Assembly: GCF_030064675.1 (NCBI RefSeq)
Contig: NZ_CP116413.1
Span: 8,957,501-9,021,500 of the forward strand
DNA: 64,000 bases
Direction of reading: 5' to 3'
Source: Crossiella sp. CA-258035
Lineage (GTDB): Bacteria > Actinomycetota > Actinomycetes > Mycobacteriales > Pseudonocardiaceae
Below the pieces are notes generated by a model that was not told where the DNA came from, made no database searches, and saw only the letters and a list, made by a program, of their open reading frames with translations. Position 1 is the first letter of the stretch. Every line of letters begins with the position of its first letter. The translations under genes and the position numbers were made by a program. Below are positions 25,741 to 64,000 of the stretch, piece after piece.

Positions 25741-26364
25741 GTGGGTTGGGACGCGCCGCGCGGGGACAGCCGTGCCACCGGGAGCCAGGCGCCGAACGTC
25801 GAACAGACGGTCGAGCGCACCTTCAGCCATCTCCGGACCCTGGACGGCAGCACACCGCGAACTGGTGGCGTCCAGGCTCCCGAGGCGCCGCTGACCTTGG
25901 AAGACCTGTACCGCCAACACCGGATGCGCCTGGTCCGCCTGGCCATCCTGCTGGTCGACGACCCGGCCACCGCCGAGGACGTGGTGCAGGAGGCGTTCAC
26001 CGGCCTGCACCGCAACTGGGGCGGCCTGCGCGACGGCGCGGCCGCCGTCGGCTACCTGCGCACCGCGGTCGTCAACGGCAGCCGCTCGGTGCTCCGCCGC
26101 CGCAAGACCGCCCGCGAGTACCAGCCCCCGCACATGACCACGGCCCGCTCGGCCGAGTCCCTGGCCATGCTGACCGCCGAACACCAGGCCGTGGTCAGCG
26201 CCCTGGGCCAACTCCCACCCCGCCAACGCGAAGTCCTGGTGCTCCGGTACTACGGCGGCCTGTCCGAACAGGAGATCGCCGAGTCCACCGGCATCTCCCG
26301 CGGCACGGTCAAGTCCACGGCCAGCCGCGCCCTGGACGCACTGCAGAAGGTCCTCCAGGGCTGA
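25741..26364 (+). CDS. SigE-family ECF RNA polymerase sigma factor
   Basis: 207 aa. Region 2 is EDLYRQHRMRLVRLAILLVD followed by DPATAEDVVQEAFTGLH. Region 4 is LPPRQREVLVLRYYGGLS followed by EQEIAESTGISRGTVKSTAS. These are hallmarks of the actinobacterial SigE-like extracytoplasmic-function factors. The GTG at 25741 was chosen because codon bias and homology begin near it, though the frame is open further up. No anti-sigma factor gene adjoins, so its control is not evident. Confidence 0.85.
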   Translation: MGWDAPRGDSRATGSQAPNVEQTVERTFSHLRTLDGSTPRTGGVQAPEAPLTLEDLYRQHRMRLVRLAILLVDDPATAEDVVQEAFTGLHRNWGGLRDGAAAVGYLRTAVVNGSRSVLRRRKTAREYQPPHMTTARSAESLAMLTAEHQAVVSALGQLPPRQREVLVLRYYGGLSEQEIAESTGISRGTVKSTASRALDALQKVLQG

Positions 26365-52763: not shown

Positions 52764-54251
52764 CTAGTAGGCGAAGGCCAGGACGTCTTCGGACTTCTTC
52801 TCGTCCTCGTCCGGCTCCTCGGGTTTCGGTGGCATCACCCCGGCGACACCGGCCATCGCGTAGCGGCGGATCAGGAAGAACTCGACCGCGGCGAGCACCC
52901 CGTAGAGCGTGGTCAGCGAGATCAGCGAGATCAGCGCCTCGGTCGAGCTGATCGCCGAGACCGCCTGCGCGGTGTACATCCACACCCCGTCCACCCCGCT
53001 GGGGTTGGGCACCACCACGAACGGCTGGCGGCCCATCTCGGTGAAGATCCAGCCGAAGCTGTTGGCCAGGAACGGGGTCGCGATCCCGCCGAGCGCCGCC
53101 CAGACGAACCAGCGCCCGTTGGGCATGCGGCCCTTGCGGGTCAGCCACAGCGCCGCGGCCGAGGCGAGCGCGGCCAGCGCGCCGAAGCCGATCATCAGCC
53201 GGAAGCCCCAGTAGGTGACCGGCAGGTTGGGCACGTACTCGATCGGCTTGCCCGCGAAGGAACCCATCCTCGGGTCGTCCGGGTAGTTCTCGCCGTACTT
53301 GGCTTTGTAGATCTTGACCAGGTCCTCCACGCCCTTGACCTCGGAGTCGAGATCGCTGTTGGCCAGGAAGGACAGCAGCGCGGGCACGGTGATGCTCTTG
53401 ACGTTCTCGCAGTCCGGGCGGGTCACGTCGCCGATCGCGAAGATGGAGAACCCGGCGGGTTTCTCGGTGTGGCACAGGGCTTCGGCCGCGGCCATCTTCA
53501 TCGGCTGCTGCTCGAACATCAGCTTCGACTGGAGGTCACCGGTGAGCGCGACCCCGGCGAAGGCGACCACCCCGACCCAGCCACCGAGCTTGACCGAGGC
53601 CCGCCACACCGGCGTGTCGGTGCCCGCCCGCCGGGCCAGGTGCCACACCGAGACGCCGACCAGCAGCGCGGCGGCCACCGCGAGCGCGCCGAACATGGTG
53701 TGCGGGAAGGCCGCCAGCACGGTCGAGTTGGTCAGCAGGTCGCCGATCGAGCGCAGCTGCGGGCGGCCGTTGGGGCCGAGGATCGCGCCGACCGGGTGCT
53801 GCATCCAGGAGTTGGCGGAGAGGATGAAGTAGGCCGAGGCGACCGTGGCCAGCGAGGCGGCCCAGATGCAGGCCAGGTGCACCCGCTTGGGCAGCCGGGA
53901 CCAGCCGAAGATCCACAGCCCGAGGAAGGTCGACTCGACGAAGAAGGCCACCAGCCCCTCGATCGCCAGCAACGAGCCGAACACATCGCCGACGAACCGC
54001 GAGTACTCGCTCCAGGACATGCCGAACTGGAACTCCTGCACGATGCCGGTCACCACGCCCATGGCGAAGTTGATCAGCATCAGCTTGCCCCAGAACTTGG
54101 TCATCGCCAGGTACTTGGGGTTCCCGGTCCGGTGCCAGGCCGTCTGCATGCCTGCCACCAGCAGCGACAGACCGATGGTGAGCGGCACCATCAGGAAGTG
54201 GTAGACGGTGGTGATACCGAACTGCCACCGTGCGATGTCGAGGACCTCCAC
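52764..54251 (-). CDS. cydA: Cytochrome bd quinol oxidase subunit I
   Basis: 495 aa. VYHFLMVPLTIGLSLLVAG holds the N-terminal heme-ligand His, VVTGIVQEFQFGMSWSEYSR and LIEG-type FFVESTFLGLWIFGW follow, and GRQPFVVVP (GRQP motif) is conserved in the quinol site. It oxidises menaquinol and reduces oxygen with high affinity, favouring growth at low oxygen. A GTG start with GGAAGG upstream. A possible Rex site lies 95 bases ahead. First gene of a cydA-cydB-cydDC-kinase operon. Confidence 0.96.
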   Translation of the reverse strand: MEVLDIARWQFGITTVYHFLMVPLTIGLSLLVAGMQTAWHRTGNPKYLAMTKFWGKLMLINFAMGVVTGIVQEFQFGMSWSEYSRFVGDVFGSLLAIEGLVAFFVESTFLGLWIFGWSRLPKRVHLACIWAASLATVASAYFILSANSWMQHPVGAILGPNGRPQLRSIGDLLTNSTVLAAFPHTMFGALAVAAALLVGVSVWHLARRAGTDTPVWRASVKLGGWVGVVAFAGVALTGDLQSKLMFEQQPMKMAAAEALCHTEKPAGFSIFAIGDVTRPDCENVKSITVPALLSFLANSDLDSEVKGVEDLVKIYKAKYGENYPDDPRMGSFAGKPIEYVPNLPVTYWGFRLMIGFGALAALASAAALWLTRKGRMPNGRWFVWAALGGIATPFLANSFGWIFTEMGRQPFVVVPNPSGVDGVWMYTAQAVSAISSTEALISLISLTTLYGVLAAVEFFLIRRYAMAGVAGVMPPKPEEPDEDEKKSEDVLAFAY

Positions 54252-54331
54252 GGCTGCCAGCCTTCCGCGTACCGGCGCTGAACAGCAGGTACAGGGGTCC
54301 CCTCTCGTCCCGCCGAGGGTCCCCCAGTGGC

Positions 54332-54361
54332 GGGACCAAGGTCCCGGTGACCGGTTTCACC
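54332..54361. promoter_or_regulatory. Possible Rex operator upstream of cydA
   Basis: GGTGACCGGTTTCACC (54346-54361) matches nine of the twelve fixed bases of the streptomycete Rex site TGTGAANNNNTTCACA. A perfect palindrome GGGACCAAGGTCCC (54332-54345) abuts it. The Rex repressor of streptomycetes controls cydABCD and is released when NADH is high. Confidence 0.5.
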
Positions 54362-54407
54362 CGGGATCGCGGCGGGGCCTGCGCCTGGCTGCCCTGCGCA
54401 CCGCCAC

Positions 54408-54962
54408 GTCGACGAAGCCGCCGCCCGTCTCCCGGACGGCAGGCGGCTCTACGTCGTCGCCGCAGTACTGAGCCACAGCGACGACCACGCCACGATCACC
54501 ACCGCGCTCACCGCGTTGTGCGAGAAGGACCCGCTGCACTTCCGGAACGAGACCCGGGATCGTCGGGTGGTCATTGCCGAGGTGCTCGCGACGCTGCCGC
54601 TGCATGGCGCGGTCATCGCCACCACCTCGACCACCGACAGTGGGCAGGAGAAGGCGCGGGCGCGGTTGCTCTGCGATCTGCTGCCTCGGTTGCAGCACGT
54701 GGAGCGGGTCGGGCATGTCGTGCTGGAGAGCCGGGCCGGTGGTGACCGGTTCGACCGGCGCACGCTCAACCGGTTGCGCATGGCGCGGCAGGTCAGTGCC
54801 GGACTTCGGCTGGACCACGCGGGCAAGGAGTTCGCTCTGCTGTGGACCGCGGACTTCGTCGCCTCGTCCTATGTGGCGGCGACCAGGCACAGTGAGCCGA
54901 AGCCGTGGGAGATCATCAACGGGGCGCATCTGATCGAGATCACCGAATTTGCCCCCAGATAG
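54408..54962 (+). pseudogene. DUF3800-like protein, intact start not found
   Basis: Coding similarity runs from about 54408 (VDEAAARLPDGRRLYVVAAV) to the stop at 54962, 185 residues. VVLESRAGGDRF, LRLDHAGKEFALLWTADFVA and the opening VDEA recall the DUF3800 family, predicted RNase-H-like proteins often near mobile DNA. There is no ATG or GTG in frame between the upstream TGA near 54348 and a TTG at 54516, which would drop the conserved opening and its acidic residue. It may start at an unusual codon or be decayed. No ribosome site seen. Confidence 0.45.
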
Positions 54963-55067
54963 CGCGAAGCCGGGGGTCCTGATTTCCCTCAGGCTCGTTC
55001 CCCGGCTCACTTCTGGCCGCGTCCGCGGACCGACCAGCTCTGGCCTCAGCCTACACCAGGGTGGGGG

Positions 55068-55715
55068 TCAGCGCAGGGCGACGGCGACCGCTGCGGCGGC
55101 GGCGACCACGTGCGGGCCCACCTCGTCGGCCTTGAGGGGTTCGAAGGAGACCACGCCGACGCTGGCTTGCAGGCCGGGGACGGCGCGGACGGGGGCGGCG
55201 ACGCCGTGGGCGCCGGCTTGGAGCTCGCCGGAGCTGGCGACCCATTCGGGGCCTTCGGGGGGCAGGGCGATGGCGCGGCCCGCGGCTCCGCGCTGGATGG
55301 GGTGGCGGGTGCCTACCCGGTAGGCGACGTGGTAGGCGGTCCAGGAGGGTTCGACGACGGCTACGGCTTGGGCTTCGTTGCCGTGCACGACCGTGAGGTG
55401 GGCGGTGGCGCCGATCTTCTCGGCCAGGCCGCGCAGGGCTGGGAGGGCGGCAAAGCGGAGTTGGGGGAGGACCCGGCCCGCCAGTTGGAGGACGCCCAGG
55501 CCCAGGCGGACCCGGGAGCCTTCGCGGCGGACCAGGCCTCGCGCCTGGAGGGGGCCCAGTAGGCGGTAGATGGCTGCTCGGCTGGCGCCGATGGCGGTGG
55601 CCAGGTCGCTGATGCTGGGGGCCTCGGTGTCCGCGTCGGCCACCGCCTGGAGCAGGGCGAGCCCGCGTTCCAGGGTGAGTGAGCTCTCCCTGGCCGCTCC
55701 GGGCACCGCTCCCAT
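55068..55715 (-). CDS. IclR family transcriptional regulator
   Basis: 215 aa. The N-terminal winged HTH is ISDLATAIGASRAAIYRLLG then PLQARGLVRREGSRVRLG. The C-terminal effector domain (ALRGLAEKIGATAHLTVVHG, VGTRHPIQRGAAGRAIALPP) is that of IclR proteins. AGGAG precedes the ATG. It lies 9 bases after fahA in the same direction, so it is likely the pathway-specific regulator of the fahA/hmgA tyrosine-degradation genes; homogentisate or a related acid is a plausible effector. Confidence 0.9.
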   Translation of the reverse strand: MGAVPGAARESSLTLERGLALLQAVADADTEAPSISDLATAIGASRAAIYRLLGPLQARGLVRREGSRVRLGLGVLQLAGRVLPQLRFAALPALRGLAEKIGATAHLTVVHGNEAQAVAVVEPSWTAYHVAYRVGTRHPIQRGAAGRAIALPPEGPEWVASSGELQAGAHGVAAPVRAVPGLQASVGVVSFEPLKADEVGPHVVAAAAAVAVALR

Positions 55716-55723
55716 TCCCGCTC

Positions 55724-56917
55724 CTACTCTCCGCTGACCACGGTGCCGGTGACCTCGCTCAGGCCCACCAGCGAGCCGCCGGGGCCGGGCGCGGTGGCGG
55801 TGAGCACCACCGTGTCGCCGTCTGCCAGGAAGCTGCGTTCCGTGCCGTCGGCCAGGGTGATCGGCTCCTTGCCGCCCCAGGACAGTTCCAGGAAGCTACC
55901 CCGCTGGCGCTTCTCCGGCCCGGAGACCGTGCCGGAGCCGAACAGGTCGCCCGGTCGCACGGTGGCGCCGTTGACCGTCATGTGCGCCAGCTGCTGGGCC
56001 GCGGACCAGGACATGTCCCGGAACGGCGGCTCGGCGACCAGGGTGCCGTTCCAGTGCACCTCCAGGCGCAGGTCAAGACCCCAGGGCTGGTCCTCGGCCA
56101 GGTAGTCCAGCAGCGGGTTCGGCGCGGGCGGGGTGGGCACCCTGGCGTTGCTGAATGCCTCCAGCGGGGTGATCCAGGCCGAGATCGAGGTGAGGAAGGA
56201 CTTGCCCAGGAACGGGCCCAGCGGCACGTACTCCCAGGCCTGGATGTCCCGGGCGGACCAGTCGTTGAGCAGCACCACGCCGAAGAGGTGCTCGGCCGCC
56301 GCGGCGGTGGGCACCCTGGCGGCCACCGGGCCGCCGCAGACGAAGCCGACCTCGGCCTCGATGTCCAGGCGCTTGCTCGGCCCGAAGCCCGGCGCGTCGG
56401 CGCCCGGCGGGCGGCTCTGGCCGTGCGGGCGGACCACCTCGGTGCCGGAGACCACCACGGTGCCCGCGCGGCCGTGGTAGCCGACCGGCAGGTGGGTCCA
56501 GTTCGGCAGCAGCGGGTCGCCGTCGGGGCGGAAGATCCGGCCGACGTTCTCCGCGTGGTGCCGCGAGGAGTAGAAGTCCACGTAGTCGCCGACCCGGAAC
56601 GGCAGCAGCGGGGTCACCGAGGCCAGCGGCAGCAGCTCCGCGCCGCTGGGCGTGGCCGGCAGGTCGACCAGCTCGGTCAGCCTGGCCCGCAGTTCGCTCC
56701 ACAACGGCCGTCCGGCGGCCAGCAGGTCGTCCAGGGTCTCCCCGGCCACCAGGGGCGCCAGGCGCTCCCCCAGGTCCAGTGAGCGCAGCGGAAGGGCATG
56801 GTCGCCCACCCTGACCGCGACCACCGGACCGGAGCCGGCGTCGACCACGCCGTAGGGCAGGGTCTGCGGCCCGAACGGCTCGTGCGCGGCGAAGGCCGGG
56901 TCCTCGATCCAGCTCAC
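55724..56917 (-). CDS. fahA: Fumarylacetoacetase
   Basis: 397 aa. It hydrolyses fumarylacetoacetate to fumarate and acetoacetate, the last step of tyrosine breakdown. VDFYSSRHHAENVGRIFRPD holds the catalytic residues, with HLPVGYHGRAGTVVVSG, IEAEVGFVCGG and VLLNDWSARDIQAWEYVPLG as metal-site blocks, and GTVSGPEKRQRGSFLELSWG near the end. The GTG at 56917 overlaps the stop of the gene upstream by GTGA. No separate maleylacetoacetate isomerase gene is seen nearby. Confidence 0.95.
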   Translation of the reverse strand: MSWIEDPAFAAHEPFGPQTLPYGVVDAGSGPVVAVRVGDHALPLRSLDLGERLAPLVAGETLDDLLAAGRPLWSELRARLTELVDLPATPSGAELLPLASVTPLLPFRVGDYVDFYSSRHHAENVGRIFRPDGDPLLPNWTHLPVGYHGRAGTVVVSGTEVVRPHGQSRPPGADAPGFGPSKRLDIEAEVGFVCGGPVAARVPTAAAAEHLFGVVLLNDWSARDIQAWEYVPLGPFLGKSFLTSISAWITPLEAFSNARVPTPPAPNPLLDYLAEDQPWGLDLRLEVHWNGTLVAEPPFRDMSWSAAQQLAHMTVNGATVRPGDLFGSGTVSGPEKRQRGSFLELSWGGKEPITLADGTERSFLADGDTVVLTATAPGPGGSLVGLSEVTGTVVSGE

Positions 56918-57828
56918 AACAGGCCCAGCCCTTCCAGGTCCTCGACCGGTTCGGTCAGCGAACAGGAGCCGTAGGAGGCGAACACCCCGCGCACGGCGTG
57001 CGCGGCGGCCTCCGGCAGCGCCTTGGCCTCTGCGGCGAGCGCCTCGGGGTCGTCGCTGGTCAGCGCCTCCCGAGCGTCCTTGCCGGAGAGCGTGCGGGCG
57101 GTGGCGACCAGCAGGTTCAGGAAGCCGTGGTGGTTGAACCCGGTCTCCTCGTCCCGGTGCCGCAGCGCGTTGTGCAGCCCGGCGGTGGCCTTGAACGGCA
57201 CGCCGGTGGTGCTGGCCACGGTGAGGAAGTCGGCGACCTCGTCCACGCTGGGGAAGGCCTCCGGCGTCTGGCCGCCGCAGCGCAGCTTCGGCCAGCTGCC
57301 GTGTTCGGCCACCCGCCGCACGCTGTCCAGCCACTCGCTGCTGGTGCCGGCCTCGGTGTTCTGACTTGGGCGCCTGGGCTCGATGACCCGGATCACGTCC
57401 TCGGGCACGAACTCCGAGACGCGTTCCAGCCACACGTCGTCGACTTCCGACGGCGCGGGCATCTCGACCATGCGCAGGGCGAGCAGCTCGGTGCGGGACT
57501 CGACGATGGAGATGGCCTTGGGCACCGCGCTCAGACCGGTGTCGATCACCAGTGACAGACCCACCGGCTTCACCGGTTTGATCTTGATCAGCTCGGTGAT
57601 CAGCTCAGGCAGCCTGGAGGCATTGCACAGGAAAAGGCCCACCACGCCGGCCCAGGACTCGGTCCTGGCCTGCAGGTGGTTGCGCAGCGCGTCCGCCATC
57701 GGGGCGTTGCCCGGTGGGAACAACGCCGCGTCGTCGACCAGCCTTGCGAGCAGGGGCGGTGTACCGCGCGGACCGGGCGCACGGAGCTCAGCGACGCTTG
57801 ACACGGCTGACACGCTAGTGGTGTCCAC
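56914..57828 (-). CDS. Unknown protein of the homogentisate operon
   Basis: About 304 aa, soluble, with no signal peptide. VDDAALFPPGNAPMADALRN, PKLRCGGQTPEAFPSVDEVA and VPFKATAGLHNALRHRDEET are notable conserved-looking blocks, and alternating strand/helix pattern suggests a TIM-barrel-like fold. I do not recognise the family. Its stop overlaps the fahA start by GTGA, and it is divergent from hmgA, so a role in tyrosine/homogentisate degradation is inferred, perhaps replacing maleylacetoacetate isomerase or metabolising a side product. Start is uncertain: GTG codons at 57828, 57813 and 57804 are possible. Confidence 0.75.
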   Translation of the reverse strand: MDTTSVSAVSSVAELRAPGPRGTPPLLARLVDDAALFPPGNAPMADALRNHLQARTESWAGVVGLFLCNASRLPELITELIKIKPVKPVGLSLVIDTGLSAVPKAISIVESRTELLALRMVEMPAPSEVDDVWLERVSEFVPEDVIRVIEPRRPSQNTEAGTSSEWLDSVRRVAEHGSWPKLRCGGQTPEAFPSVDEVADFLTVASTTGVPFKATAGLHNALRHRDEETGFNHHGFLNLLVATARTLSGKDAREALTSDDPEALAAEAKALPEAAAHAVRGVFASYGSCSLTEPVEDLEGLGLL

Positions 57829-57844
57829 GGAACCGAACAAAAAT

Positions 57845-57859
57845 GTCCGGTCTCCGAAC
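57845..57859. promoter_or_regulatory. Candidate IclR operator upstream of hmgA
   Basis: GTCCGG-TCT-CCGAAC is an inverted repeat with one mismatch, 14 bases before the hmgA ATG and 16 bases before the divergent gene. A further CCGAAC lies at 57832-57837. This suits control by the IclR protein encoded at the end of the fahA operon. Confidence 0.4.
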
Positions 57860-57873
57860 ACCCGGAGGGAGCA

Positions 57874-59061
57874 ATGCCTTACTACCGCGCGGTGGGTTCG
57901 ATCCCCCAAAAGCGCCACACCCAGTTCCGCGATCCGGACGGCAAGCTGTACGCCGAAGAGCTGATGGGCGTGGAGGGTTTCTCCTCCGACTCGGCCCTGC
58001 TCTACCACCGGCACCTGCCGACCGCGATCGTGAACGCCGAGGTCGTGGCCGAGTGGCGGGGCACGACCACGGCCAACCAGCCGCTCAAGCCCCGGCACTT
58101 CCGCACCCAGGAGCTGAAGTGGGACGCCCCAGCCGAGGTGGACGCGGTCACCGGACGGCGGCTGCTGTTCGGCAACGCCGACGTCGCGATCTGCTTCACC
58201 GCGCCGACCACGGCCAGCCCGCTCTACCGCAACGCCTTCGGTGACGAGCTGCTCTACGTGCAGACCGGCACCGCGGTGATCGAGACCATCTACGGCCCGC
58301 TGGAAGTGGCCGACGGCGACTACGTGGTCATCCCGACCTCCTGCACCTACCGGGTCGTGCCCCAGGGCGGCGAACAGCTCCGGCTGCTCGTGCTGGAGGC
58401 CACCGGGCACATCGGGCCGCCCAAGCGCTACCTGTCGAACAAGGGCCAGTTCCTGGAGCACGCGCCCTACTGCGAGCGGGACCAGCGCGGGCCGACCGAG
58501 CCGCTGCTGGTCGAGGGCACCGACGTGGAGGTGCTGGTCCGGCACCGCACCGGGCTGACCAGGTTCACCTACGCCAACCACCCGTTCGACGTGGTCGGCT
58601 GGGACGGCTGCCTGTACCCGTGGGCGTTCAACATCCGCGACTTCGAGCCGATCACCGGCCGGGTGCACCAGCCGCCGCCGGTGCACCAGACCTTCGAGGG
58701 CCCGAACTTCGTGGTCTGCTCGTTCTGCCCGCGCAAGGTCGACTACCACCCGCTCGCGGTGCCGGTGCCCTACAACCACGCGAACGTGGACTCCGACGAG
58801 CTGATGTTCTACGTCGGCGGCAACTACGAGGCGCGCAAGGGCTCCGGGATCGGCATCGGGTCGATGTCGCTGCACCCCTCCGGCTGCACGCACGGGCCGC
58901 AGCCGGGCGCCGTCGAGGCGTCCCTGGGGGCGGACTACTTCGACGAGACCGCGGTCATGGTGGACACCTTCCGGCCGCTGGAGCTGGGCGAGGCCGCGCA
59001 GGACTGCGAGGACCCGCGCTACGCCTGGTCCTGGGCCAGGCGCGGACCCGACTGGACCTGA
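57874..59061 (+). CDS. hmgA: Homogentisate 1,2-dioxygenase
   Basis: 395 aa. It opens the homogentisate ring with oxygen to give maleylacetoacetate. The cupin iron site includes VHQPPPVHQTFEGPNFVVC and DELMFYVGGNYEARKGSGIG, with SLHPSGCTHGPQPG holding the second His. GGAGGGAG lies 5 bases before the ATG at 57874. It is divergent from the operon that carries fahA, so all homogentisate-degrading steps except the isomerase are present here. No hppD gene is in the window. Confidence 0.95.
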   Translation: MPYYRAVGSIPQKRHTQFRDPDGKLYAEELMGVEGFSSDSALLYHRHLPTAIVNAEVVAEWRGTTTANQPLKPRHFRTQELKWDAPAEVDAVTGRRLLFGNADVAICFTAPTTASPLYRNAFGDELLYVQTGTAVIETIYGPLEVADGDYVVIPTSCTYRVVPQGGEQLRLLVLEATGHIGPPKRYLSNKGQFLEHAPYCERDQRGPTEPLLVEGTDVEVLVRHRTGLTRFTYANHPFDVVGWDGCLYPWAFNIRDFEPITGRVHQPPPVHQTFEGPNFVVCSFCPRKVDYHPLAVPVPYNHANVDSDELMFYVGGNYEARKGSGIGIGSMSLHPSGCTHGPQPGAVEASLGADYFDETAVMVDTFRPLELGEAAQDCEDPRYAWSWARRGPDWT

Positions 59062-59143
59062 GGAAAACGGATACCGTCCGTTCCCTTTCGCAGCGTGTGC
59101 GGAAGGGGACGGACTGTCAGGGCGGGGCCATAGGGTTCGGTCC

Positions 59144-60442
59144 GTGGATGTCGACGCGGTGCTGGCGCTGGCGCCCGACCAGCAGGTCGCGGCCAGCGCG
59201 GCCAAGCTGACCGCCCTGGCCGGCTGGGACTGGCTGGGGCGGGACGAGCGGCTGCTCTGGGGACTGTGCCGGGGCAGCGGCAGCAAGCCGTACCAGGTGT
59301 GCGTCGACCTGACCGACCGCGCGGCCAAGTGCTCCTGCCCATCCCGGAAGTTCCCGTGCAAGCACGCGCTGGCCCTCCAGCTGCTGCACGCGCTGGACAA
59401 GGTGGAGCCGGGCGTGCCGTTGCAGTGGGCAGGGGAGTGGCTGGCCAAGCGGGAGTCGCGGACCGCGCCCACCGAGCTGGACACCTCCGCGGAGGCGGTC
59501 CAGCGGCGGGCGGCGGCGGCCGAGCGGACCGCGGCCAAGCGGGCGGCCGCGGTGCAGGCCGGGGTGAGCGGGCTGCGCGAGTGGCTGGCCGACCTGGCCG
59601 CCGGTGGCATCGCCGGGCTGCCCTCGCGGGAGCCGGAGTGGTGGCGGATGTCCTCGGCCAGGATGGTGGACGCCAAGGCGCCCGGACTGGCCGAGTCGAT
59701 CACCGAGCTGTCCGCGGTGGTCCGGGCCGGTGGACGGCGCTGGGCCGAGGTGGCCGCGGACCGGATCGGCGGGCTGCACCTGCTGGCCACGGTCGCGCCG
59801 GACCCGCCGGAAGAACTCGCCGCGGTGGTGCGGCGGCGGCTCGGGTTCACCGTGCGCGAGGACGAGGTGCGCGCGGGCGAGGGCTGGTCGGACCGCTGGG
59901 TGCCGCTGCTGCTGCGGGACTCCGACGACGGGCGGATCCGTACCGTGCAGCAGTGGGCCTGGGCACGCCAGCGGCGGGAGTGGGTGACCGTGCTGCGGCA
60001 CGGGGTGCTCGGCGGGCCCGGCATCGGACCGGCGCTGCCGGTGGGCGGGGAGTTCGAGGGCACGCTGTACCCGTATCCGGCCGGGATCCCCCGGCGGATG
60101 GCGGTGGGGGACGTGGGCGAGGTGCGCGCGGCCGAGGCGATCGAGCTGCCGGAGACCTGGGCGGCGGCACTGGCCGGGCTGGAACCGGCGCTGGTGGCCG
60201 ATCCGTGGCAGCGCAGGCATCCGCTGGGCTGCCAGCGGGTCCGGCTCGGCCTGGCCGGGCACGAGCACGGGCTGGTGGACGCCGAGGACCGGTGGCTGCC
60301 GGTGCGCCAGGACAGCGCGGTGGACCGGGCGCTGGCGCTGCACGGCGGGGCCGCCTTCGACGCGGTGTGCCTGTGGAACGGCTGGACGCTGACCCTGGGT
60401 GCGGCCGCCGAACCGGGTCAGGCTCCGGTGGTGCTGGCGTGA
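59144..60442 (+). CDS. SWIM zinc-finger protein
   Basis: 432 aa. The SWIM motif CxCxnCxH is KCSCPSRKFPCKH (about residues 63-75), preceded by YQVCVDLTDRAAK. The rest is helical and charged, with no catalytic motif. The SWIM zinc finger binds DNA or proteins. It is the first gene of a compact run: its stop overlaps the DUF5691-like gene by GTGA. In other actinobacteria, such proteins also sit with MoxR ATPase, DUF5691, DUF5682 and VWA-domain genes. The role is unknown; it may recruit the ATPase to a target. Confidence 0.85.
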   Translation: MDVDAVLALAPDQQVAASAAKLTALAGWDWLGRDERLLWGLCRGSGSKPYQVCVDLTDRAAKCSCPSRKFPCKHALALQLLHALDKVEPGVPLQWAGEWLAKRESRTAPTELDTSAEAVQRRAAAAERTAAKRAAAVQAGVSGLREWLADLAAGGIAGLPSREPEWWRMSSARMVDAKAPGLAESITELSAVVRAGGRRWAEVAADRIGGLHLLATVAPDPPEELAAVVRRRLGFTVREDEVRAGEGWSDRWVPLLLRDSDDGRIRTVQQWAWARQRREWVTVLRHGVLGGPGIGPALPVGGEFEGTLYPYPAGIPRRMAVGDVGEVRAAEAIELPETWAAALAGLEPALVADPWQRRHPLGCQRVRLGLAGHEHGLVDAEDRWLPVRQDSAVDRALALHGGAAFDAVCLWNGWTLTLGAAAEPGQAPVVLA

Positions 60443-61854
60443 CCGGGTGGCAGGAAACGGTGCAGCGCCTGCTGGTCGGCGCGACCAGGTCCACTGTGGA
60501 CGGTGAAGAGCTGCTGGCCGACTGCGCCGCGCTCGGGCTGGCCAGGCACGGCGCGCAGCAGCCGCGGGCCGGTGGCATCGAGGTGCTGGCGCCCGCGCCG
60601 GCGGAGAGCAGGCCGGTCGCGCCGGACCGCACCGCGGGGCTGTTGAGCCAGATCCTGGCCTGGGAGGACCCGCACCTGCTCACCGAGTGGTGCCTGGCGG
60701 TGGCCCGCGCGGGCCGGATCGCGCCGCCGAGGGCGCTGCCGGACCTGCTGGCCGCGGGCACCGCGCGCACCGGCTGCCGGCCGGAGATCGTGGAGGTGCT
60801 GGGCGCGCGCGGACGCTGGCTGGCCGGGATGCGGCCGTCCTGGTCGTGGGCGGCGGGCACCCCGGAGACGCCGGAGGGCCTGGCCGACCTCAACGAGCTG
60901 CTGGACCTGCCGCTGCCACAACGGAAGGCGGGGCTGCGCTGGGCGCGGCTGTCCGATCCGGCCGGGGTGCGGCGGCTGATCACCGAGGGCTGGTCCGGGC
61001 TGTGGCGGGCCGGGGACCGGCGGCTGCTGGTCACCGCGCTGGCCGACGGGCTCAGCGCCGCGGACGAGCCGCTGCTGGAGGCCGCGCTGGACGACCGGGC
61101 CGGCGCGGTGCACAACGAGGCCGTGCGGCTGCTCCGGCTGCTGCCAGGGTCGGCGCTCTCCGAACGGTCCGCGGCCCGGCTGCGGGCCGGGCTGCACGTC
61201 TCCCGCGGCGAGCTGACCGTGCGCGAGGACGGCCCGTACGGCAGCGAACCGGAGCCGGCCGAGGTGCGGGACCTGTTGCGCGAGGGCACCTTGGAGAGCG
61301 GGGTGAGCGGACGGCTGCTCGGCGCGGCCAGCGGGGTGCCGCCGGAGCTGTTCCTCGAACTGTTCGGCGCGGACACCGAACAGCTGCTGCAAGCCTCGCC
61401 GTGGGCGCCGATGCTGCTCAAGGGGATCGCCGCCGCGCTGCCGCGCTCGGCCGACCCGCTGCGCTGGCTGCCCGCGGTGGCCAAGGTGCTCTCCCAGGCC
61501 GACCTGCTGGACATCCTCGCCGAGCTGCCCAGCGAGCTGGCCGCGCGGGCGCTGGCCGGGCTGGTCGGCCGGTGGAACTACGACGTGCTCGACCACGCCT
61601 GCGCCGGGCTGCCCGGCCCGTGGCCCGCGGAGACCACCAGCGCGGTGCTGGCCCGCTACGCCGAGATGAGCGACCGCCGCTGGCGGGCCGGGCGGCCGCC
61701 CGAGCTGCTGATGCGCCGCGGCGACCTGGGCGTGCTGACCCGGCACTGGCGGCGGATCACCCTGCGCTGGCCCGAGCACGGCGCCGAACACTCAGTACTG
61801 GAGCTGCGCACCGAACTGTTCCGTGCGCTCGACGATCGGAAGGACCCGGCGTGA
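60439..61854 (+). CDS. DUF5691-like helical-repeat protein
   Basis: 471 aa. VTGWQETVQRLLVGATRSTV starts the protein. Most of it is Leu/Ala-rich helical repeats (LLEAALDDRAGAVHNEAVRL, LRLLPGSALSERSAARLRAG), resembling HEAT-like proteins. WRAGRPPELLMRRGDLGVLT lies near the C-terminus. I assign DUF5691 by its place between a SWIM protein and a MoxR-type ATPase and by general make-up; the label should be checked. It probably acts as a scaffold for the ATPase. GTG start overlaps the previous stop, and its own stop overlaps the ATPase start. Confidence 0.72.
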   Translation: MTGWQETVQRLLVGATRSTVDGEELLADCAALGLARHGAQQPRAGGIEVLAPAPAESRPVAPDRTAGLLSQILAWEDPHLLTEWCLAVARAGRIAPPRALPDLLAAGTARTGCRPEIVEVLGARGRWLAGMRPSWSWAAGTPETPEGLADLNELLDLPLPQRKAGLRWARLSDPAGVRRLITEGWSGLWRAGDRRLLVTALADGLSAADEPLLEAALDDRAGAVHNEAVRLLRLLPGSALSERSAARLRAGLHVSRGELTVREDGPYGSEPEPAEVRDLLREGTLESGVSGRLLGAASGVPPELFLELFGADTEQLLQASPWAPMLLKGIAAALPRSADPLRWLPAVAKVLSQADLLDILAELPSELAARALAGLVGRWNYDVLDHACAGLPGPWPAETTSAVLARYAEMSDRRWRAGRPPELLMRRGDLGVLTRHWRRITLRWPEHGAEHSVLELRTELFRALDDRKDPA

Positions 61855-62948
61855 CGACCGAGAACGGCGGCGGCGCACTCCGCCCCAGCGCCGAAGAGCA
61901 GTACGCCGCCGAGCTGGCCGCCTGCGCCGCGGCGGACGACCGCCCGCGCCCGCCGCGCTGGCGGATGTCCCCACAGGCCGTGGTGCGCTACGTGCTCGGC
62001 GGCAAGCTGCCGGACGGCACGGTGATCACGCCCAAGTACATCGGCGACCGGCGGCTGGTGGAGGTCGCGGTGGGCACCCTGGTCACCGACCGGGCGCTGC
62101 TGCTGCTCGGCGTGCCGGGCACGGCGAAGTCCTGGCTGTCCGAGCACCTGGCGGCCGCGGTCAGCGGCGACTCCACGCTCGTCGTGCAGGGCACCGCGGG
62201 CACCAGCGAGGACTCGATCCGCTACGGCTGGAACTACGCCCGGCTGATCGCCGAGGGGCCGAGCGAGGCCGCGCTGGTGCCCTCGCCGGTGCTGCGCGCG
62301 ATGCGCACCGGGGCGGTGGCCAGGATCGAGGAGCTGACCAGGATGCCCTCGGAGGTGCAGGACTCGCTGATCACCGTGCTCAGCGAGAAGGCGCTGCCGG
62401 TGCCAGAGCTGAACCAGCAGGTGCAGGCGATCGCCGGGTTCACCGTGATCGCCACCGCGAACGACCGGGACCGCGGCGTGAACCAGATGTCGGCCGCGCT
62501 GGCCAGGCGGTTCAACACGGTGGTGCTGCCGCCGCCGGCCACCGAGGACGCCGAGGTGGAGATCGTCGCGCAGCGCTCGGCGCAGCTGGGCCGGGCGTTG
62601 CAGCTGCCCGCCGAGCCGCCCTCGCTGGCCGAGGTGCGCCGGGTGGTGCGGATCTTCCGCGAGCTGCGCAACGGGGGCACCTCCGACGGGCGCACCCAGC
62701 TGAAGAAGCCCAGCGGCAGCCTGTCCACCGCCGAGGCGATCTCGGTGGTGACCAGCGGGATGGCGCTGGCCGCGCACTTCGGCGACGGGGTGGTCGGCGC
62801 GGACGAGCTGGCCGCCGGGCTGCTCGGCGCGGTGGTCAAGGACCGGGTGTCGGACGCGGCGGCCTGGCAGGAGTACCTGGAGGCCGTGGTCAGGGAACGC
62901 GCCGAGTGGCGGGACCTCTACCGGGCCTGCCGGGAGCTCGGCGTCTGA
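61851..62948 (+). CDS. MoxR-type AAA ATPase
   Basis: 365 aa. Walker A is LLGVPGTAKSWLSEHLA, Walker B is AVARIEELTRMPSEVQDSL with EE at the usual DE place, sensor I is VIATANDRDRG and the arginine finger region is ALARRFNTVVLP. The MoxR group works as hexameric chaperones with VWA-domain partners. The N-terminal 60 residues are specific to this subgroup. Its start overlaps the DUF5691-like gene by GTGA and its stop overlaps the next ATG by one base. A VWA gene is expected beyond the right edge. Confidence 0.88.
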   Translation: MTTENGGGALRPSAEEQYAAELAACAAADDRPRPPRWRMSPQAVVRYVLGGKLPDGTVITPKYIGDRRLVEVAVGTLVTDRALLLLGVPGTAKSWLSEHLAAAVSGDSTLVVQGTAGTSEDSIRYGWNYARLIAEGPSEAALVPSPVLRAMRTGAVARIEELTRMPSEVQDSLITVLSEKALPVPELNQQVQAIAGFTVIATANDRDRGVNQMSAALARRFNTVVLPPPATEDAEVEIVAQRSAQLGRALQLPAEPPSLAEVRRVVRIFRELRNGGTSDGRTQLKKPSGSLSTAEAISVVTSGMALAAHFGDGVVGADELAAGLLGAVVKDRVSDAAAWQEYLEAVVRERAEWRDLYRACRELGV

Positions 62949-64000
62949 TGGCCCGGACCCAGCCCCTGCCGGCCCGGGTCACCCTGCTCGGCATCCGGCA
63001 CCACGGCCCCGGCTCGGCGCGGATGGTGCGCGCCGCACTGGCGGCGTTGTCGCCCGAGGTGATCCTCATCGAGGGGCCGCCGGAGGGGGACGCGCTGCTG
63101 GCGCACGTGCCGGAGCTGACCCCGCCGGTGGCGCTGCTGCTGCACGAGGAGGCCGATCCGGCCAGCGCCTCGTTCTGGCCGTTCGCCCGCTTCTCCCCGG
63201 AGTGGCAGGCGCTGAGCTGGGGCGCCGAGCACGGCGCGTCGACCCGGTTCTTCGACCTGCCCGCGGCGATGTCCCTGGCCAGGGCGGCAAACCCGCCGGC
63301 GGAGCGGAAGGTCGCGGTCGACCCGCTGGCGGTGCTGGCCGAGGCGGCCGGGTTCGACGACCCGGAACGCTGGTGGGAGGACGTGGTCGAGCACTCCTCG
63401 GCCGACCCGCTCGGCCTGGCCGCCGCGGTGGCCGAGGCGATGGGCGCACTGCGCGAGGAGTTCGCCGACACCGTGGACGAGCACACGCTGCGGCGTGAGG
63501 CGGCCATGCGGCAGAACCTGCGGAAGGCGCTGAAGGACACCGAAGGGCCGGTCGCGGTGGTCTGCGGGGCGTGGCACGTGCCCGCGCTGCAACAGCTTCC
63601 GGCCGCGACCGCGGACGCGGCGCTGCTGCGCGGGCAGCCGAGGCTGAAGGTCTCCGGCAGCTGGGTGCCGTGGAGCCACGGGCGGCTGGCGGCCACCTCC
63701 GGCTACGGCGCGGGGGTGGACTCGCCGGGCTGGTACGCGCACCTGTGGGAGCGGGCCGAGGCGGGCGATGTGGTGCCGCGCTGGCTGGCGCGCACCGCGC
63801 AGGTGTTGCGGGAACAGGGACTGCCCGCCTCCACGGCCAGTGCGGTGGAGGCGGTGCGGCTGGCCGAGACGCTGGCCGCGCTGCGCGGGCGGCCCTCGCC
63901 GGGGCTGGCCGAGGTCACCGAGGCGACCCTGGCGGTGCTCTGCGGCGGGGACGACGTGGGGCTGAAGCTGGTGCGGGAGCGGCTGGTCGTCGGCGAGGAG
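62948..64000 (+). CDS. DUF5682-like protein, C-terminus cut by window edge
   Basis: The first 351 residues are visible. RVTLLGIRHHGPGSARMVRA at the start, VILIEGPPEGD, and VVCGAWHVPALQQL around residue 200 are reminiscent of the TraB/ChaN/erythromycin-esterase group of predicted metal-dependent hydrolases, whose first His, central Glu and late His motifs occur in that order. This is my inference; the family is otherwise described only as DUF5682. It opens one base inside the ATPase stop and so is fully coupled to it. It may be the effector of the module. Confidence 0.75.
   Translation, partial: MARTQPLPARVTLLGIRHHGPGSARMVRAALAALSPEVILIEGPPEGDALLAHVPELTPPVALLLHEEADPASASFWPFARFSPEWQALSWGAEHGASTRFFDLPAAMSLARAANPPAERKVAVDPLAVLAEAAGFDDPERWWEDVVEHSSADPLGLAAAVAEAMGALREEFADTVDEHTLRREAAMRQNLRKALKDTEGPVAVVCGAWHVPALQQLPAATADAALLRGQPRLKVSGSWVPWSHGRLAATSGYGAGVDSPGWYAHLWERAEAGDVVPRWLARTAQVLREQGLPASTASAVEAVRLAETLAALRGRPSPGLAEVTEATLAVLCGGDDVGLKLVRERLVVGEE

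Follow-up and report, generated by a model that had tools for sequence, protein, structure and literature searches.

A five-gene MoxR–VWA operon of Crossiella and its probable place in the bacterial DNA damage response

The sequence analyzed was a 64,000-nucleotide (nt) stretch of Crossiella sp. CA-258035 (NZ_CP116413.1, positions 8,957,501 to 9,021,500), called the window below, and coordinates are those of the window unless another record is named. The genome is a single 9.17-Mb contig. At the right end of the window, from 59144 to 64000, genes on the plus strand encode a SWIM zinc-finger protein (59144 to 60442; 432 amino acids [aa]; GTG start; Pfam PF04434, E = 2.7e-6), a helical-repeat or solenoid-like DUF5691 protein (60439 to 61854; 471 aa; PF18944, E = 1e-69), a MoxR AAA+ ATPase of the YehL subfamily (61851 to 62948; 365 aa; AAA_5, E = 7e-37), and the N-terminal 351 aa of a 742-aa DUF5682 protein, the gene for which begins at 62948 and continues past 64000 to window-equivalent position 65176 (PF18934, E = 1e-234). 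A fifth gene on the same strand lies entirely outside the window, at window-equivalent positions 65173 to 66345 (L009:6174-7346), and encodes a 390-aa VWA protein (VWA_CoxE, PF05762, E = 1e-53). Consecutive genes in the order SWIM–DUF5691–MoxR–DUF5682–VWA overlap by 4 (GTGA), 4 (GTGA), 1 (TGATG), and 4 (ATGA) bases. Because the next gene called after the VWA gene is convergent, we conclude that the operon consists of five genes.

Residues characteristic of each family were conserved. The four zinc ligands of the SWIM protein (C63-x-C65 ... C72-x-H74) were kept in 61 to 62 of 62 alignment rows, fused SWIM open reading frames (ORFs) of more than 700 aa having been left out. Residues G87..K93, E160/E161, and R219/R220 of the ATPase, its nucleotide-binding and arginine-finger motifs, were present in 76 to 77 of 77 rows, and residues D218-x-S220-x-S222, T277, and D303 of the VWA protein, its MIDAS motif, were kept in all 70 rows. 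The AlphaFold2 model of DUF5691 (mean pLDDT 88.5), folded from an alignment of 43 of 70 relatives plus the window's own protein, was nearly all helix and gave weak matches to alpha-Rep and armadillo-like repeats.

Conservation of the gene order was surveyed in a genome collection, in which 572 relatives were confirmed and the best 80 analyzed, a sample biased toward the query; 11 of the 80 loci had short flanks and were left out. All five genes were found together in 67 of the 69 well-flanked loci. They were all collinear in 53, SWIM–DUF5691 diverged from MoxR–DUF5682–VWA in 9, and the VWA gene had moved by a few kilobases (kb) in 5; of the incomplete loci, one had no SWIM match and one, of a cyanobacterium, had DUF5682 alone. 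The complete loci belonged to the Actinomycetota, Bacteroidota, Cyanobacteria, Planctomycetota, Pseudomonadota, and Verrucomicrobiota, with phyla, like the families given below, assigned from record titles. In the Mastigocoleus locus (L111), none of the other four families was found beside DUF5682 in 20 kb. Among 13 relatives from the same order, 10 had five separate collinear genes, 1 began at a contig end, 1 had SWIM and DUF5691 fused, and 1 had a moved VWA gene; of their 50 junctions, set by the starts of a simple gene caller, 37 overlapped, the overlap being 1 or 4 bases long in 35. Six of the 80 loci and one further relative (L059), seven loci in all, had SWIM and DUF5691 joined in a single reading frame, and DUF5682 and VWA were fused in four relatives of another YehL type.

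Moreover, 396 genomes drawn evenly from the phylum were searched, only the best 2 to 3 candidates per genome being scored. DUF5682 was present in 24 genomes, and all 21 genomes with a strong DUF5691 match (E < 1e-15) were among them (P = 5e-32, ignoring relatedness). The two genes shared a contig in each of the 21, at a distance of 1,186 to 3,327 bases, on the same strand in 10 and on opposite strands in 11. Three genomes had DUF5682 without DUF5691, one had DUF5691 only by summed fragments and without DUF5682, and five had sub-cutoff DUF5691 matches without DUF5682. We conclude from the gene order of the relatives and from the co-occurrence in the 396 genomes that the five-gene clustering is not due to chance.

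Median identity to the window's proteins was 70% for MoxR, 60% for VWA, 49% for DUF5682, 33% for SWIM, and 28% for DUF5691, and VWA lengths ranged from 369 to 410 aa in the 69 loci. Pairwise distances of the five proteins correlated with r of 0.85 to 0.94 in the 54 loci that had all five as separate single matches, as expected for parts inherited together. The five genes could nevertheless be coincidental neighbors under shared regulation that form no single machine, since the moved VWA gene faces the opposite way in five Lentzea loci, and one cyanobacterium has DUF5682 alone. That explanation is very improbable, as it must account for the retention of all five genes in nearly every well-flanked locus, for both kinds of fusion, and for three types of YehL system, described below, that keep MoxR, DUF5682, and VWA together.

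The original prediction for this locus, made from the sequence of the window, had described four genes with overlaps of 1 to 4 bases whose products probably act together, had assigned a zinc finger to the first product and a helical-repeat scaffold to the second, and had proposed a VWA partner just past the window. The overlaps were found where described, the SWIM match with its conserved ligands and the nearly all-helical DUF5691 model bear out the two assignments, and the predicted VWA gene is the fifth gene of the operon. The absence of a downstream VWA gene and of clustering elsewhere had been named as what would count against the prediction; the VWA gene is there, and the survey found the four families clustered with it well beyond this genome. 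A single functional unit is supported by that clustering and by the fusions.

An operon of Deinococcus deserti, ddrTUVWX, comprises these five families in identical order; its five genes run from Deide_18730 (SWIM) to Deide_18690 (VWA, CoxE-like), and it is described as being of unknown function (PMC5552922), as it still is in PMC8072749. An RDRM lies upstream of ddrTUVWX, the operon is under IrrE/DdrO control, and its induction by gamma radiation depends on IrrE; the SWIM gene was in the class induced more than 10-fold and three of the other genes were in the class induced more than 5-fold (PMC5552922). The species for which PMC5552922 lists a homolog with an RDRM are D. gobiensis, D. maricopensis, and D. 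peraridilitoris. The ddr names were matched to families by way of D. taeanensis TS293 and not from the D. deserti sequence. In TS293, an extra ORF of 78 residues separates ddrV from ddrW (PMC9510100), and the plasmid record reads SWIM, DUF5691, AAA, a 237-base ORF, DUF5682, and VWA. Because the 78-aa ORF sits between AAA and DUF5682, ddrT, -U, -V, -W, and -X correspond to SWIM, DUF5691, MoxR, DUF5682, and VWA, respectively. The TS293 SWIM gene is preceded, at a distance of 19 bases, by the end of an RDRM-like palindrome that has 3 mismatches; this is the sole place with 3 or fewer mismatches in 20 kb, and none appeared in 100 shuffles. The Deinococcus and Crossiella operons thus share their families, their order, and a DNA-damage-type control element before the SWIM gene, but the element differs, being an RDRM for the DdrO repressor in Deinococcus and a motif of the PafBC activator in Actinobacteria. 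We conclude that, as judged by the matching five-gene order, the operon is the actinobacterial counterpart of ddrTUVWX.

The actinobacterial element resembles RecA-NDp, a LexA- and RecA-independent DNA damage promoter of mycobacteria with the consensus tTGTCRgtg-8 nt-TAnnnT (PMC5656591), through which PafBC works (PMC6789036). A candidate promoter of this kind, CTGTCAGGG-N8-TAGGGT, was found on the plus strand at 59114 to 59136, ending 7 nt before the SWIM GTG; it has 2 mismatches to TTGTCRGTG-N8-TANNNT and is aligned within the genus. By itself the window's two-mismatch site is weak evidence, and the motif across loci is strong evidence, for a promoter of the PafBC type. The region upstream of SWIM was scanned at 12 scored positions in the 57 actinobacterial and 13 other loci that had a SWIM match preceded by 200 or more bases. 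The motif occurred with 2 or fewer mismatches in 34 of the 57 actinobacterial loci (15 perfect, 4 with one mismatch, and 15 with two), compared with 0.6% of 1,710 dinucleotide shuffles, and in 0 of the 13 non-actinobacterial loci; by a somewhat different rule, none of 16 such loci had one. At the same cutoff it was found upstream of DUF5691 in 0 of 56, of DUF5682 in 1 of 57, and of VWA in 0 of 55 loci. It preceded MoxR in 10 of 57, exactly the 10 Streptomycetaceae loci in which MoxR opens a divergent transcript, and there the MoxR side carried a perfect TTGTCAGTG in 10 of 10, followed by CAnnnT instead of TAnnnT.

Under another set of rules, which demanded TGTC except in nearly perfect sites and an exact TAnnnT and which allowed up to 3 mismatches in the first box, a site was found in 33 of 57 loci and, on the reverse strand, in 0 of 57. 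Under the main rule, sites with 2 or fewer mismatches were found on the reverse strand of 10 of the 57 loci; eight were the MoxR-facing divergent sites and two (L094 and L124) were not. Across the 34 sites, T2 to C5, G7, A19, and T23 were constant or nearly so, most spacer positions varied, and position 10 was G in 29, a pattern in which the cutoff itself favors the fixed positions. Sites with 2 or fewer mismatches were present in 14 of 16 loci of Pseudonocardiaceae, 10 of 10 of Streptomycetaceae, 3 of 5 of Kribbellaceae, 3 of 9 of Streptosporangiaceae/Thermomonosporaceae, 2 of 9 of Nocardiaceae/Gordoniaceae, 1 of 2 of Nocardiopsaceae, and the single locus of Actinopolymorpha. The position of the GTG 7 nt past the −10 box, with no evident ribosome-binding site, suggests that the SWIM mRNA may be leaderless. 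According to a table in PMC5656591, M. smegmatis lacking pafBC has lower levels of a von Willebrand factor protein and of both MoxR1 and MoxR2.

The last three genes of the operon have counterparts in the yehL-yehM-yehP-yehQ cluster of E. coli K-12, which keeps the order L-M-P and includes a SWIM protein, YehQ. The MoxR ATPase was 42% identical to YehL over 358 columns (E = 7e-81), DUF5682 was 27% identical to YehM, and VWA was 38% identical to YehP; YehQ and the window's SWIM protein could be aligned at the SWIM finger only. The E. coli cluster differs in that no DUF5691 was found, DUF4132 (YehI) is nearby, and the SWIM protein is at the opposite end. YehL is one of seven MoxR subfamilies (PMC3893208), and the window's ATPase was assigned to it by identity to YehL, the one subfamily compared. 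We conclude from these alignments that MoxR, DUF5682, and VWA are homologs of YehL, YehM, and YehP.

Three YehL-type systems were found in the Crossiella genome: that of the window, with DUF5691 and with intact MoxR motifs followed in order by DUF5682 and a MIDAS-bearing VWA protein; an E. coli-like system that includes DUF4132, at 4.58 Mb; and one of a third type at 5.37 Mb. The first protein of the third-type system is 165 aa long and SWIM-like by eye, with no match in Pfam. The third-type operon also encodes a 457-aa unknown protein, and its DUF5682 (L047:7122-9860) scored 104 bits to PF18934 in the genome search and gave no hmmscan match as a protein. In a MoxR tree with an arbitrary root and some long branches flagged, 23 DUF5691-type rows from seven phyla were split from the other types by a branch with 100/99 support. 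The four relatives with the DUF5682–VWA fusion (L061, L062, L063, and L064) are another YehL type without DUF5691; the fused proteins are 1,148 to 1,306 aa long and stand beside an unknown protein of 1,584 to 1,647 aa.

The RecA-NDp consensus occurred perfectly at nine sites in the 9.17-Mb Crossiella genome, and a backwards control gave 0. Two of the nine, at C1:4578072-4578094 (plus strand) and C1:5379279-5379301 (minus strand), stand in front of the other two YehL-type operons (L046 and L047), at distances of 46 and 56 nt from starts set by a simple gene caller; the probability that nine random sites would fall within 100 nt of both operons is about 2e-9. All three YehL-type systems of Crossiella therefore carry the motif, that of the window imperfectly. 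The other perfect sites, which include C1:6767689-6767711 (minus), C1:6155241 (minus), C1:5369243 (minus), C1:5490148 (plus), C1:7405539 (plus), and C1:1889569 (minus), precede casA/cse1 (by about 110 nt), a proteasome ATPase gene (222 nt), ligA (7 nt), and DUF1963, glyoxalase-like, and BNR-repeat genes, and one lies inside a gene. A type I-E CRISPR system (casA/cse1) under a DNA damage promoter would be of interest.

LexA was considered as another source of damage control. A LexA/SOS box before the window operon was rejected, as no site with 3 or fewer mismatches to the LexA-type pattern TCGAAC-N4-GTTCGA was found between 59062 and 59143. The window as a whole held 36 such matches compared with 17 expected, the single-mismatch one, at 25799, being far from the operon. 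No LexA-type pattern recurred consistently in the non-actinobacterial loci or where a good PafBC motif was lacking.

We conclude that the operon is probably a DNA-damage-response operon for an ATP-driven MoxR–VWA protein-remodeling machine, the DUF5691 subtype of the YehL family. This conclusion was drawn from operon anatomy, homology, fusions, co-conservation, and the promoter motif, and radiation induction has been measured by others in Deinococcus only; from these we infer promoter activity in Crossiella, complex formation, subunit roles, client, and chemistry. Several observations weigh against it. The window contained 8 sites with 2 or fewer mismatches to the promoter consensus compared with 1.3 expected. 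Among the 57 loci, which are related so that motif counts are not independent, 23 had 3 or more mismatches, including all 4 from Micromonosporaceae and the 1 from Solirubrobacter. When 12 same-order relatives were scanned, some of their genomes also being among the 57, 8 had sites with 2 or fewer mismatches, two had 3, and two had none up to 3; the three DUF5682–VWA fusion operons scanned (L061, L063, and L064) had no site up to 3 mismatches. By eye, pafBC was not recognized in the one 19-kb region inspected, near the proteasome ATPase. LexA control of the E. coli yeh genes was rejected, with 7 one-mismatch sites compared with 5.8 expected. In Deinococcus, the most induced genes as tabulated do not include the fourth, Deide_18700, nor do the most induced proteins include any of the five products (PMC5552922). 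Moreover, PMC5552922 lists D. radiodurans, D. geothermalis, and D. proteolyticus as lacking ddrTUVWX, so that their resistance to radiation does not depend on it. Finally, no expression, binding, or phenotype data were found for an actinobacterial copy.

The original prediction had held that the whole has no established biological role, which was too strong, as the homologous ddrTUVWX has been published as radiation induced and the core is that of E. coli yehLMP. It had also offered an immune (conflict) system and a protein maturation machine as alternatives; the first is weakened, while keeping some probability, and the DNA damage link was missed by both.

Like NorQ–NorD, CoxD–CoxE, and RavA–ViaA, the operon pairs a MoxR AAA+ ring with a MIDAS-bearing VWA protein. 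Those pairs have known clients, and we know of no SWIM, DUF5691, or DUF5682 partners for them. By analogy with NorQD and CoxDE, the operon might encode a maturation machine in which MoxR–VWA inserts a metal into, or assembles, one client enzyme, with DUF5682 as a scaffold or cofactor-handling part and with the promoter reflecting oxidative stress rather than repair. MoxR–VWA pairs of known function act in this way (NorQD, PMC13036017; PMC7159879). Consistent with such a machine, the sequence matches of the ATPase in the PDB were NorQ and midasin, the VWA protein is CoxE-like (its own phmmer search of the PDB gave no meaningful match), and MoxR keeps its high median identity across phyla. We nonetheless regard maturation as unlikely: no neighbor is conspicuous as a client enzyme, the 25 largest clusters of flanking ORFs being restricted to one phylum or to one phylum with one or two outsiders and including no conserved sixth gene, and metal insertion alone does not explain DNA damage promoters.

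Another possibility is a conflict (immune or suicide) system triggered by DNA damage. The vWA-MoxR ternary conflict systems likewise join a MoxR–VWA pair to further components and are common in actinobacteria and cyanobacteria, but their other components are different and their effectors highly variable (PMC7159879), whereas the five parts of the window's system are constant; the words SWIM, DUF5682, and DUF5691 are absent from the main text of that paper. A damage-triggered suicide system would fit some of the data, including the perfect promoter site before casA/cse1 and the patchy presence of the families (DUF5682 in 21 of 60 relatives and in 24 of the 396 phylum genomes; DUF5691 over cutoff in 15 of the 60). 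Against it, no third component (VMAP, iSTAND, FtsH, or beta-propeller) exceeded the Pfam cutoff in the five proteins, and VWA_CoxE was the sole family over cutoff in the 390-aa VWA protein, with no variable effector domain seen. PADLOC gave no match for four of the proteins and E = 0.051 for the VWA protein, and on 10 flanking proteins it returned seemingly generic ABC-ATPase and HTH matches. Neighbors are constant within lineages, and the MoxR core changes slowly. Mobile carriers are rare, with DUF5682 in 36 of 72,556 plasmid records (some chromosome sized) and 1 of 50,697 phage records, DUF5691 in a single plasmid record of 11.9 Mb, and no relative confirmed in viral contigs searched with two peptide patterns. 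A conflict role is therefore rather improbable. Membership in the VMAP-type ternary systems was rejected, as their defining components were absent from the Pfam scan; the ATPase gave a sub-threshold bpMoxR match of 26.1 of 27 bits.

How a damage-induced MoxR–VWA remodeler might operate can be sketched from its parts. DNA damage would switch on the operon, through PafBC in Actinobacteria and through derepression from DdrO in Deinococcus. The SWIM–DUF5691 pair would serve as an adaptor that binds the target via its zinc finger and solenoid, and the VWA protein, held with DUF5682, would present its MIDAS site to a peptide of the client. The MoxR hexamer would then spend ATP to pull or twist the client-bound VWA–DUF5682 arm, and the alpha/beta domain of DUF5682 might hydrolyze something on the client or sense the client. 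In NorQD, the VWA domain inserts a finger into the pore of the ring and the ring twists the linker (PMC13036017), and the same engine is proposed for the MoxR–VWA pair of the window.

The hydrolase assignment of DUF5682 is a lead that comes from motifs and a predicted model. A full-length relative, modeled from an alignment of 46 of 78 DUF5682 relatives (mean pLDDT 90), has an alpha/beta domain of about 240 residues followed mostly by helices. Conserved positions are G15-x-x-H18-H19, E42, E85, D103, R183-E184-x-x-M187, and G207-x-x-H210; among 20 diverse members of three types, YehM included, G15 was present in 19 and all of the others in 20. This series (strand-GxxH, strand-Glu, helix-R-E-x-x-M, strand-GxxH) is like that of the TIKI/TraB/EreA/ChaN superfamily, but the first motif of DUF5682 has no Glu, and homology was not established by profile or fold search. 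In one solved member of the TIKI/Ere/ChaN superfamily, the catalytic residues are two His and two Glu (PMC6254334). The motif and strand order of the DUF5682 model fit the GxxH ... Glu ... GxxH core. A DUF5682 profile scored 22.5 against TraB, on the R..M..GxxH part and above all 40 of 40 column shuffles (maximum, 22.0; E = 0.028 for one comparison); scores of 19.4 against Ere (shuffle maximum, 21.2) and 13.7 against ChaN (shuffle median, 13.6) were not above shuffles. The profiles are shallow (5 to 23 rows), and known superfamily relatives also miss each other in such comparisons. A sequence-profile search of the PDB with DUF5682 gave no real match, and Foldseek with the model gave no match at E ≤ 0.001, its top 50 being mostly helical-repeat proteins; this lack of a firm match is a weak point of the hydrolase reading.

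A more specific version of the remodeling machine is a long shot: the SWIM–solenoid adaptor would deliver damaged or stuck protein-DNA complexes to the MoxR–VWA remodeler and to a cutting TIKI-like hydrolase, and damage would activate the whole in two or more phyla via unrelated regulators. Such a machine would resemble eukaryotic p97 with SPRTN in role and not in ancestry. On this reading the operon would represent a widespread, so far unrecognized arm of the bacterial DNA damage response, and the other YehL-type systems of Crossiella would be parallel machines with other targets.

The operon is preceded by other features of the window. A strong, terminator-like hairpin without a T-run lies on the plus strand at 59070 to 59118, 3′ of hmgA, and the 82-nt hmgA–SWIM intergenic stretch folds with −46.4 kcal/mol (z = −5.6; 0 of 200 shuffles equal). 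The stem is kept with paired changes, as judged by eye, in three relatives of the genus, and the hairpin may separate the operon from hmgA. The candidate promoter begins in the last bases of the hairpin. Farther upstream, 52764 to 59061 presumably holds a cytochrome-bd-oxidase-like gene and a tyrosine catabolism cluster, the members of which we take, from their sequences, to be an IclR-like regulator, a fumarylacetoacetase-like protein, and a homogentisate dioxygenase-like protein. Among 101 loci, the fetched stretch included hmgA in 20, each labeled or named as belonging to the family of the window, and it included sucC in 10 loci of Streptomycetaceae and in one of Bacteroidota. In four Amycolatopsis loci, which belong to the window's family too, the stretch lacked hmgA. 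The neighborhood of the operon is constant within the hmgA- and sucC-bearing lineages.

The radiation induction of ddrTUVWX and the yehLMP core were already known, and the sequences suggest a link of ddrTUVWX to the PafBC motif and to the YehL family. In a full-text literature search, outside of which most subscription journals lie, no paper naming DUF5682 or DUF5691 and no connection among MoxR–VWA chaperones, Deinococcus ddr genes, and the PafBC regulon was found, and the available text of papers naming ddrTUVWX held no tie to the YehL family or PafBC. The operon bears on the YehL branch of MoxR ATPases, which extends from Actinobacteria to Bacteroidota and E. coli and for which no task is reported in the literature examined. 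It also joins the three topics of MoxR–VWA chaperones, ddr genes, and the PafBC regulon.

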